DNA of 64,000 nt from a virus. A program made the translations under genes and the position numbers. The notes under the pieces are model-generated. The model was given only the letters and a program-made list of their open reading frames with translations. It was not told the origin of the DNA and searched no databases. How positions within the stretch are numbered: the stretch's first letter is position 1; every line of letters starts with the position of its first letter. Positions 35,001 to 62,016 of the stretch are shown here, piece by piece. Location of the stretch: the IMG/VR virus record IMGVR_UViG_3300036770_004732, positions 47,302 through 111,301 of that record; one strand, written 5' to 3'.

Positions 35001-35165
35001 TTTACTTTAAAAAGAAATAAGTATGAGTATAGGGATTACTCGTTTACTGATTTCCTTCACTACCCTCAAGTGAAGGTAAGATGAGGGATGCTTTACTTCT
35101 CATGATCCCGGTTAGAGAAGACAACGTTAAGATTCTGTAACAGTTCTTAACTTGTTGTTGTATTT

Positions 35166-52719: not shown

Positions 52720-52740
52720 TCTCTTCAATAACTCAGGCTC

Positions 52741-52860
52741 GCCACTTATTTTTTATCTAGAAATAAGAAACTAGGCGGGGTTTCCCCATCCACACCAGTC
52801 GGCATATTTAATGTCCAATCCGACGAGGACATAAAGGGTCATTGACTCCACCACCTAGTT
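52741..52860 (-). ncRNA. Pseudoknotted leader RNA, wcaG-motif-like
   Basis: A 10-bp closing stem (minus AACTAGGTGG 52860-52851 with CCGCCTAGTT 52778-52769, one G-U pair that would be C-A on the plus strand) encloses an H-type pseudoknot: ATGTCC (52832-52827) pairs GGACAT (52816-52811), and GTCGG (52824-52820) pairs CCGAC (52802-52798). A GGGG-AAA-CCCC hairpin follows inside. It precedes the terminator and gmd-fcl. The wcaG RNA motif, reported in cyanophages upstream of exopolysaccharide or high-light genes, is the leading candidate. Identity not tested. Confidence 0.7.
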
Positions 52861-58512: not shown

Positions 58513-58665
58513 GAAAGGTGATGAGTGCCCATCACCAGCGGAAGACACTCTCCGCAACGAGAGGGGGTGATCAAATCCCCGACCTAAGAAAACTTAGGAT
58601 TTAGTGAGTCGGATATGATGATCCCGACTCTTATGGAAGACGCAGACATTTCCAGACCTTCCAAC
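58513..58665 (-). other. Hairpin-rich spacer between tRNA-Asn and tRNA-Thr
   Basis: No ORF of worth. On the minus strand four hairpins stand in series: GAGTCGG/CCGACTC, CCTAAG/CTTAGG, CTCTC/GAGAG and GGTGATG/CATCACC. GGGG-ATTTGATCA-CCCC resembles a T arm with a changed T-loop. It may be RNA-processing structure or a decayed tRNA. Confidence 0.45.
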
Positions 58666-58738
58666 TCCCGTTGCTGGGATCGAACCAGCGACATTCGGAT
58701 TAACAGTCCAACGCAACTACCAACTGTGCTAAACGGGA
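58666..58738 (-). tRNA. tRNA-Asn (anticodon GTT)
   Basis: 73 nt; acceptor TCCCGTT/AACGGGA, anticodon stem TTGGA/TCCGA with loop CTGTTAA, T arm GCTGG-TTCGATC-CCAGC. Confidence 0.95.
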
Positions 58739-58744
58739 ATGATG

Positions 58745-58789
58745 GAGTAAGTGTGATATATCTCATAAGGATATAACAGTGACTTACCC
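58745..58789 (-). ncRNA. Conserved two-stem hairpin element, copy 2
   Basis: Minus strand: outer stem GGGTAAGT/ACTTACTCC, inner stem ATATC/GATAT, loop CTTATGA, internal CTGTT. Differs from copy 1 (53624-53666) by paired changes in both stems. Starts about 8 nt after a promoter and leads into tRNA-Asn. Confidence 0.6.
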
Positions 58790-58803
58790 TCTATCACTTT
58801 TAT

Positions 58804-58832
58804 ATATTAGACTAATTTTGAGTTTATGTCAA
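58804..58832 (-). promoter_or_regulatory. Sigma70-like promoter before element 2 and tRNA-Asn
   Basis: TTGACA (58827-58832), 17 bp, TAATAT (58804-58809). The TGA inside TTGACA is the stop codon of the HNH gene. Confidence 0.82.
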
Positions 58833-59299
58833 GTCCAAAGATTATGGTCATATTCCCAATGACAGTTTGGACACAAAGGCATTATATTTTCTTTTGAATT
58901 TATAACACTAATCATAATATCTTCACTAAAAGAAGATATTGGTTTAATGTGAGCAATTTCTATATGTTTATTATAACCACACTTTGTACATTCAGTAAAT
59001 CCAAGTTTTTTAGCAAAAGATCTTGCTCGTGTTCTAACTAATGCGAAAGCAGAAGATCTATGATGTTTTTCATATATCGCTTCTCTAAGCGTCATATCTC
59101 TTACTTCTCTTTCTTTCATCCATAACAAATAATGTTCTTTACAGCGAGAACGATTTGCTGTTATTGCTTCTCCACAATCAATACATTTATGTTCTGGTTT
59201 TCTTTTTGGTGCTATTTTATTATTATATGAGGCAGCACAACTTCTCCCACAAAACTTTGGATTTTTTGTTTCTCCTTCACAGAATAAACATTTATTCAT
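58829..59299 (-). CDS. HNH homing endonuclease in tRNA cluster
   Basis: 156 residues. Two N-terminal zinc motifs (CLFCEG...CGRSC, CIDCGEAITANRSRC) and a C-terminal HNH core CTKCGYNKHIEIAHIKPISS with NIMPLCPNCHWEYDH. Free-standing between tRNA-Arg and tRNA-Asn. Late promoter 23 nt upstream. It may cut near the intron site of tRNA-Arg, which lies just upstream. Confidence 0.9.
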   Translation of the reverse strand: MNKCLFCEGETKNPKFCGRSCAASYNNKIAPKRKPEHKCIDCGEAITANRSRCKEHYLLWMKEREVRDMTLREAIYEKHHRSSAFALVRTRARSFAKKLGFTECTKCGYNKHIEIAHIKPISSFSEDIMISVINSKENIMPLCPNCHWEYDHNLWT

Positions 59300-59321
59300 A
59301 ATCGAACCTTTTAGTTATTAT

Positions 59322-59329
59322 TATTTATA
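59322..59329 (-). promoter_or_regulatory. T4-type late promoter for HNH gene
   Basis: Exact TATAAATA on the minus strand, 23 nt before the HNH ATG. Confidence 0.7.
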
Positions 59330-59350
59330 ATACTCTAAGGTTCAAAAAGC

Positions 59351-59625
59351 GTCTCAGGAGGGACTCGAACCCCCGACCAACTGCTTAGCTTACCACTACG
59401 AATTTCTCCGCCATTTCTGTTTGTGGTCTGGACTTTCTCTTTACCATATCCCAAAGGACTTAGGCACTTCCCGTAAAGTCTCTACACCTTCATCTAACGA
59501 TGCTTGGCTCGGGATTGCCATTTTAAAGGGTTCCCCGAATTTGAGAAGTTACATTCATAAAGTTTCCTTTATGACGCTCCATTTATGTTTAAGGCAGATG
59601 CTCTATTCCACTGAGCTACTGAGAC
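59351..59625 (-). tRNA. tRNA-Arg (anticodon TCT) interrupted by a group I intron
   Basis: Exon 1 is 59625-59591 (acceptor GTCTCAG, D arm, stem TCTGC, CTT); exon 2 is 59388-59351 (CTAA, GCAGT, T arm GGGGG-TTCGAGT-CCCTC, acceptor CTGAGAC). Joined they make 73 nt with anticodon loop CTTCTAA. The intron lies between U34 and C35 of the anticodon. Unspliced, the anticodon loop is destroyed. Confidence 0.92.
59389..59590 (-). ncRNA. Group I intron (IC3-like) in tRNA-Arg, 202 nt
   Basis: Minus strand: AAATTCGGGG, GGCAATCCCGAGCCAAG (P/Q), GGTGTAGAGACTTTACGGGA (R) and AGAAAGTCCAGACC (S), ending GTGGTAAG. These blocks match cyanobacterial tRNA-Leu-type introns (group IC3) rather than the three psbA introns (GATATAGTCC type). 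It has no ORF. 5' exon ends in T and intron ends in G, as required. Confidence 0.9.
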
Positions 59626-59652
59626 AGTATGGAAGAACAAAATCTTCCAAGT

Positions 59653-59723
59653 AGGACTGGAGGGAATTGAACCCTCTTCACACCGTTATAAGCAGTGGGC
59701 CTTAACCAATAGGCGACAGTCCC
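59653..59723 (-). tRNA. tRNA-Ile (anticodon TAT)
   Basis: 71 nt; acceptor GGGACTG/CAGTCCT, anticodon stem CACTG/CGGTG with loop CTTATAA, T arm GAGGG-TTCAATT-CCCTC. UAU is the rare AUA decoder; useful in AT-rich phage genes. Confidence 0.93.
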
Positions 59724-59809
59724 AGAGACCCTCCTGTTTGTGCTTCTATGAGAGGCATGGAGGGGGAGGGTCTTATGGAAGGGTTGGAACCTCGCCTGCC
59801 CATGAGAGT

Positions 59810-61590: not shown

Positions 61591-62016
61591 ATGAGTTGGC
61601 AATACAATGGAGAAATCTTTACCGATGTTCCCAAAGGAATGGAAGGATTTGTTTATATTATTACCAACTTAACAAATAATAAAAAGTATATTGGTAAAAA
61701 ACATTTTTGGACAAGGCAAAAGAATAAAAAGACGGGAAGAAGAAAAACAGAAGAATCTGATTGGAAAAATTACTTTGGTTCTTGCGATGAACTTAATGAA
61801 GATGTAAAAAAAATAGGTAAAGAACATTTCCTTAGAGAAATTCTTTACCTGTGTCCTCATAAGAAATCTATGAGTTATTATGAAACTTATGAACAATTTA
61901 ACCGTAATGTATTAATGAGTGAAGAGTATTATAATACAAATATTGGTGGAACCTTTTATATGAGTGAATCTCAAAGAATTTATGGTGTGGTTCTTAAGTC
62001 TTCTAAGATTAGCTAA
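61591..62016 (+). CDS. GIY-YIG-type homing endonuclease on the plus strand
   Basis: 141 residues. GFVYIITNLTNNKKYIGKKH is the GIY-YIG motif; the Arg-rich RQKNKKTGRRKTEESDWKNY and a following EHFLREILYLC block with catalytic Glu fit the T4 Seg-like group. It lies in reverse direction between a composite terminator/promoter and the gene it would serve, so it looks inserted. CTAAATA on the plus strand upstream may be its own late promoter. Confidence 0.85.
   Translation: MSWQYNGEIFTDVPKGMEGFVYIITNLTNNKKYIGKKHFWTRQKNKKTGRRKTEESDWKNYFGSCDELNEDVKKIGKEHFLREILYLCPHKKSMSYYETYEQFNRNVLMSEEYYNTNIGGTFYMSESQRIYGVVLKSSKIS

Follow-up and report, generated by a model that had tools for sequence, protein, structure and literature searches.

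A cyanophage tRNA-Arg(UCU) gene (minus strand, 59625–59351 of the window, the 64,000-nucleotide stretch of DNA analysed here) is split in its anticodon, between U34 and C35, by a 202-nt group I intron, and is adjoined by a gene for a free-standing HNH endonuclease. We read the intron as a functional, IC3-like element that most likely spreads together with the adjacent HNH gene by collaborative homing, and assign this reading a probability of roughly 0.7. The split gene, the fold, the empty sites, the linkage, the identity of the cassette and the covariation between guide and anticodon are direct observations; splicing, cleavage and homing we infer.

The split tRNA-Arg gene and its empty counterparts

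The window is part of a 111-kb cyanophage record. ARAGORN, run in intron mode, calls a tRNA-Arg(tct) with a 202-nt intron 3' of U34 (Table 1), and the exons give a complete tRNA apart from a U27–U43 mismatch that was read directly in the anticodon stem. The 5' exon ends in UU, with a U at the 5' splice site, and the 3' end of the intron reads AAG. An initial annotation, made from the letters of this DNA, had proposed both the split at this position and a group I intron with recognizable core blocks. All of this holds: the intron matches Rfam RF00028 over its full length (64.6 bits, E 4.3e-14), and the core blocks are present. The accompanying statement that gene finders miss the tRNA is true of ARAGORN in default mode, which did not call the split gene in the window, but not of its intron mode.

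The splice sites are fixed by comparison, because the cultured cyanophages S-SZBM1 and S-SRM01 carry intronless tRNA-Arg genes. In the former, the anticodon arm is identical, letter for letter, to that of the spliced window gene. The Synechococcus phage S-SRM01, the nearest named relative (~80% identity over 35% of the 22 kb searched), is syntenic. The minus strand of the window reads tRNA-Ile, split tRNA-Arg(UCU), HNH gene, tRNA-Asn, tRNA-Thr and tRNA-Gly, and the corresponding place in S-SRM01 has an abiF-like RNA, an unsplit tRNA-Arg(UCU) and then tRNA-Asn, tRNA-Thr and tRNA-Gly in the same order, without the intron, the HNH gene or tRNA-Ile.

In the long ORFs of the window, 65% of arginine is encoded by AGA or AGG. 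Therefore, the tRNA is likely to be useful to the phage, and its exact splicing should be under selection.

Table 1. Features of the tRNA-Arg(UCU) locus, with positions in the window
Feature	Positions	Strand	Basis or remark
tRNA-Ile(UAU), upstream neighbour	59651..59723	-	missing here in S-SRM01 and several relatives
5' exon of tRNA-Arg(UCU), 3' end = U34	59591..59625	-	ARAGORN intron mode; anticodon arm same in intronless S-SZBM1
Group I intron, 202 nt, without ORF, terminal G	59389..59590	-	Rfam RF00028, 64.6 bits; covariation-supported P1–P10 model
Internal guide AUG-GAG	59577..59582	-	GAG pairs C32-U33-U34 (P1); upstream triplet is the P10 guide
P3 (59549–59543 with 59472–59466), encloses P4–P6	59466..59549	-	two-sided changes in 6 of 7 pairs
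P7 guanosine-binding helix (59480–59476 with 59435–59431), encloses P8; predicted	59431..59480	-	fully paired in 24 sequences
3' exon of tRNA-Arg(UCU), first base C35	59351..59388	-	ARAGORN intron mode
HNH endonuclease gene, free-standing (156 aa), on the tRNA strand and 51 bp downstream	58829..59299	-	Pfam HNH_2, 9e-8; PHROG HNH families
Putative mobile cassette comprising the split tRNA-Arg and the HNH gene	58740..59626	-	identity tract
tRNA-Asn(GUU), downstream neighbour and cassette edge	58664..58739	-	

Intron fold

A model of P1–P10 and the anticodon stem was written on an alignment of 24 related phage genes (A1). It pairs 93.6% of the cells, with two-sided changes in 34 of the 53 pairs, and its covariation score is 0.506; shuffled alignments give 0.157, with none of 500 as high, and sliding the partners gives no more than 0.131. 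P1, in which CUU faces GAG with a U.G at the splice site, is invariant in all 24 sequences. P3, P4, P6, P7 and P8 are paired, covariation is seen in P3, P4, P7 and P8, and four sequences swap UA for AU in P7. GAAA loops cap P2 and the P9 hairpin; P5 as drawn is paired poorly (55%). When compared by features alone, the short size, the GAAA loops and the site in the anticodon loop match IC3 introns. Judged from this alignment, the element is a small tRNA-type, IC3-like group I intron, for which a catalytic core with a guanosine site in P7 is predicted.

Such a fold suggests how splicing would proceed. In the pre-tRNA, the anticodon stem would pair and the intron would fold, GAG would pair with C32-U33-U34 to form P1, and guanosine would attack 3' of U34. 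Joining of the exons would then yield a working tRNA that reads AGA and AGG.

The P10 guide follows the anticodon

Across 53 distinct phage introns inserted at site 34/35, the triplet upstream of the constant GAG complements the 3' exon at tRNA bases 35–37. The guides are AUU-GAG in tRNA-Leu, mostly UAG-GAG in tRNA-Arg, and UAG-GAG, UCG-GAG, UGC-GAG and UAC-GAG in tRNA-Lys, -Gln, -Ala and -Thr, respectively. P10 pairs total 126, against a shuffled mean of 64 and maximum of 93 (0/5000 as high); these shuffles do not remove relatedness, and the Lys, Gln, Ala and Thr matches stand as separate cases. Cyanobacterial tRNA-Leu introns mostly have no such match.

The guide of the window intron, AUG-GAG, keeps one of the three P10 pairs (C35–G), and its close relatives are equally weak. 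Judging by its title, Zaug et al. 1993 (cited in PMC3984707) reports that the Anabaena intron requires exon pairing in the anticodon stem, so that a short P10 need not block splicing. With its one P10 pair, the window intron may lean on the tRNA stem for the second splicing step.

The single P10 pair and the U27–U43 mismatch could also be signs that the intron has decayed and the tRNA-Arg gene is dead. We consider this very improbable, given that the core helices are intact with strong covariation, that the exons are otherwise those of a complete tRNA and that near-identical copies occur in many phages.

Related introns in many phage tRNA genes

IMG/VR was scanned with core and exon patterns, and matches were re-read by the rule that the exon ends in U and the intron in G. 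Such pattern scans favour close relatives, and the counts from the matches listed (at least 119 in two scans) are not a prevalence. Among the matches listed, the introns lie mostly in tRNA-Leu(UAA) and tRNA-Arg(UCU) genes and less often in tRNA-Lys, -Ala, -Gln, -Thr and -Asn genes. Among the contigs, some are short and a few from IMG/VR may be bacterial; several intron contigs bear phage genes, namely one for a baseplate hub near L104, one for a tail fibre near L123 and rIIA near L204. The type is thus present in many phage tRNA genes, and the initial annotation's view of phage tRNA introns as rare has to be given up.

The nearest relatives of the window intron are other phage introns, with near-identical copies in many phages. 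Outside the Arg set, the closest among the matches listed is the tRNA-Leu(UAA) intron of L104 (85%), whose exons show 99% identity to a tRNA-Leu that is intronless in cultured cyanophages, S-TIM5 among them. The type also occurs, unannotated, in a tRNA-Leu(UAA) gene of the cultured jumbo Agrobacterium phage Atu_ph07 (MF403008; L596:1494-1855; 278-nt intron), and the huge phage LR756501 likewise has an unannotated tRNA-Leu(UAA) intron.

Several other matches were set aside or stand by themselves. Some ARAGORN labels (Tyr-AUA, Ser-AGA, His-AUG and Phe) proved to be slips of a few bases on Leu-UAA or other genes. The capsid introns of pelagiphages (HTVC120P, KM23-C739) have a similar core but lie inside protein genes and were rejected; related-core group I introns are found in pelagiphage-type capsid genes at L004:1446-1626 and 2155-2335 and in L003 at about 1440-1650, and KM23-C739 has two within one gene region. 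In L420 (G123:C1), a tRNA-Leu(UAA) with a 383-nt intron sits among tRNA-Tyr, tRNA-Phe and tRNA-Pro on a contig from a cyanobacterial genome of 2.1 Mb; this may be a phage contig. Conversely, L207:3451-3721 is a permuted tmRNA in an IMG/VR contig, which suggests that this member of the viral collection is bacterial.

Origin of the intron

Bacterial IC3 tRNA introns are known from cyanobacterial tRNA-Leu(UAA) and tRNA-fMet and from proteobacterial tRNA-Arg(CCU) and tRNA-Ile(CAU). The window intron shares with them a small core, insertion in the anticodon loop, a U.G at the 5' splice site and a terminal G, and with the tRNA-Leu(UAA) introns also the 34/35 site; the initial annotation had pointed out that those, too, sit in the anticodon. 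It differs in residing in a phage tRNA-Arg(UCU) and in grouping with phage introns rather than with those of cyanobacterial tRNA-Leu.

The same annotation had matched the core blocks to cyanobacterial tRNA-Leu(UAA) introns and not to the psbA introns nearby. In 292 cyanobacterial genomes, however, the best matches were tRNA-fMet introns, with identities reaching 77% (E 3e-34), and tRNA-Leu introns, at 72–73% identity to the window intron, scored lower. Trees were built on about 200 columns, one of 179 cores and a careful one of 60. In the former, the cyanobacterial tRNA-Leu introns form a single clade on a long stem (SH-aLRT 100), and the window intron falls in a group of phage introns plus one bacterial row (SH-aLRT 86). 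In the tree of 60, a single clade of phage tRNA-Arg introns is rejected (AU p=0.0003), and movement of the intron from tRNA to tRNA among phages is therefore supported.

Two host sources have to be weighed against a phage lineage. First, the intron could derive directly from a host tRNA-Leu(UAA) intron, the anticodon having changed upon entry into the phage. The two lineages share the 34/35 insertion and the CUU/GAG P1, and a sister relation between the window clade and cyanobacterial tRNA-Leu introns is not rejected in the tree of 60 (AU p=0.37). The best trees, however, do not group them; the host tRNA-Leu introns are one distant clade in which P10 is mostly absent, phage tRNA-Leu introns are nearer, and even among host introns those of tRNA-fMet are closer. 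We regard this origin as improbable. Of the initial proposal that a host-tRNA intron had moved to a phage tRNA with another anticodon, movement between anticodons thus survives; a recent move from host tRNA-Leu is disfavoured by the position of the window intron among phage introns, L104 included. The phylogeny with host introns that was called for places Leu as a distant clade and leaves either host relation unrejected, and the intron may have an ancient host origin.

Second, the source could be host tRNA-fMet introns, some of which, in cyanobacteria, hold an ORF upstream of the core. They provide the top cyanobacterial BLAST matches (L404, 77%, 1e-34; L405, 74%, 1e-27), and the cores are 83% identical in a gapped alignment. 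Their insertion site is a different one, read here as after U33, and they form a group apart; joining them to the window clade carries a cost of 30 log units, but the AU test does not reject it (p=0.115). We give this origin a similarly small chance.

In the longer term, introns of this type have probably moved from one phage tRNA gene with a U34 anticodon to another, the P10 letters being re-matched at each new site. A bolder version of the proposal is that a phage-own intron family hops between tRNAs by rewriting its three-letter guide to bases 35–37 and travels, at tRNA-Arg(UCU), with a dedicated HNH nuclease, so that it could invade or damage the tRNA genes of competitors during co-infection. 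For this version we see the odds as even.

The HNH gene and the cassette

The adjacent nuclease gene was absent from the initial annotation, and it is probably the key to the mobility of the intron. Its product scores above the curated cut-offs for PF13391 (32.3 bits against 21) and PF01844 (22.8 against 21.4). Pfam gives HNH_2 and HNH only, with no domain of the Endo VII type (the DHHRN family of F-CphI), and a search against solved structures returned none that was close (best E 0.63).

An IMG/VR protein search yielded 77 relatives. For 66 of them a tRNA-Arg(UCU) gene, intron-bearing in 28 cases, is no more than 600 bp away; nine others have a different tRNA call within that distance, and two have no tRNA call. 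At 79% identity or more, relatives mostly share the strand of an intron-bearing tRNA-Arg and lie 45–50 bp downstream of it, and those at 56–72% adjoin intronless tRNA-Arg genes, downstream or upstream, where fragments are found too. With near-identical sequences removed, intron-bearing tRNA-Arg genes comprise 15 with HNH, 8 without, 1 with a fragment and 1 unclear, and intronless ones 16, 46, 10 and 6, respectively; these tallies come from targeted scans, and no association test is claimed for them. All four combinations occur (L076, for example, has the intron without HNH, and L482 and L483 have HNH without the intron), so the HNH–intron link is not strict.

The cassette, 58740–59626, is 87–96% identical between phages, and its flanks are mostly 68–85% identical or else not alignable or unrelated. 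Our preferred explanation is that the ORF-less intron most likely spreads at the DNA level with the adjacent free-standing nuclease. During co-infection, HNH would cut tRNA-Arg(UCU) in a phage that lacks the intron, repair would copy exons, intron and HNH gene together, and the carrier would be safe, its cut site being split by the intron. L482 and L483, the HNH-positive intronless genes nearest to the window nuclease, differ in tRNA sequence; this fits with resistance and proves nothing.

It could be argued instead that the two elements are independent residents of tRNA-Arg(UCU), that HNH homes alone with the intron as a passive passenger, and that their linkage reflects shared ancestry. The occurrence of all four combinations is in keeping with this, as are the distant HNH relatives beside intronless genes, some of them upstream of the tRNA and some decayed to fragments, and turnover of homing endonuclease genes beside introns has been proposed (PMC10448857). 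Against it, intron and HNH lie in one high-identity tract across diverged phages, as if copied together. We consider independence unlikely and retain joint spread as the preferred reading.

HNH ORFs also directly adjoin further phage tRNA genes with introns, Leu-UAA and Arg-UCU (L091:3475-3939 and, weakly, L048:2824-3183), hinting that nuclease partners recur at phage tRNA introns.

Relation to known systems

In cyanophage S-PM2, F-CphI and the psbA intron exemplify collaborative homing: once a free-standing nuclease has cut the gene that lacks the intron, both elements are copied in by repair, and the intron guards its carrier (PMC6083498). The present locus is alike in that a cyanophage group I intron adjoins a free-standing endonuclease gene and relatives lack both. 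It is unlike in that the presumed target is a tRNA gene and that the nuclease is HNH by Pfam and not DHHRN. By analogy, the facts match collaborative homing as defined there. Nuclease turnover may also place an independent homing endonuclease gene beside an intron (PMC10448857). SegB of T4-like phages, a homing endonuclease of the tRNA region (cited in PMC10448857, studied in PMC13096335), is likewise free-standing and acts at phage tRNA genes, but it is of the GIY-YIG family and involves no intron.

As for introns in phage tRNAs, a 2014 review placed all then-known phage introns in protein-coding genes despite the many phage tRNA genes (PMC3984707). The single later report in the literature covered, by Devoto et al. 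2019 on Lak megaphages (PMC6784885), describes tRNA introns as enigmatic in its main text and states that none had been reported earlier in phage tRNAs. Those introns, too, lie in phage tRNA genes and vary between related phages, but that main text gives no group I structure, guide or nuclease; the main text of a huge-phage study does not mention introns (PMC7162821). The literature covered, which took in few subscription papers, described neither phage tRNA genes with group I introns nor guide retargeting, and no HNH family associated with a tRNA gene. The components are known, and the combination and the guide rule appear to be new.

Several consequences follow. tRNA introns of one type are available in many phages, including the growable isolate Atu_ph07. 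The match between guide and anticodon makes it testable how group I introns reach new sites. With its members adjoining one tRNA gene, in some cases with the intron and in others without it, the nuclease family amounts to a natural experiment on the origin of collaborative homing. In addition, phage tRNA catalogues made at default settings can overlook such genes.

Other elements and unusual tRNA genes

Rfam finds three further group I introns at 32–35 kb of the window, presumably in psbA, where the initial annotation placed them. It also matches a PhotoRC-II RNA (35040-35134), a wcaG RNA (52731-52832) and an abiF RNA (59728-59764); the abiF-like element precedes tRNA-Arg in S-SRM01 as well. 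A SegE-like GIY-YIG endonuclease (61591-62016, plus strand; Pfam 8.4e-39) is a second free-standing homing gene near the tRNA cluster.

On a 543-kb phage contig, L026:3113-3423 is a tRNA-Tyr(GUA) with an RF00028 match of 84.7 bits, which, by its tRNA and the size of the genome, may be of the kind called enigmatic in Lak phages; megablast of this region against named phages gave no match. Finally, in L490 (2820-2970) and L487, an HNH relative lies beside a tRNA-Arg whose anticodon loop has an insertion of ~47 nt holding a T-arm-like hairpin, perhaps a repair scar.
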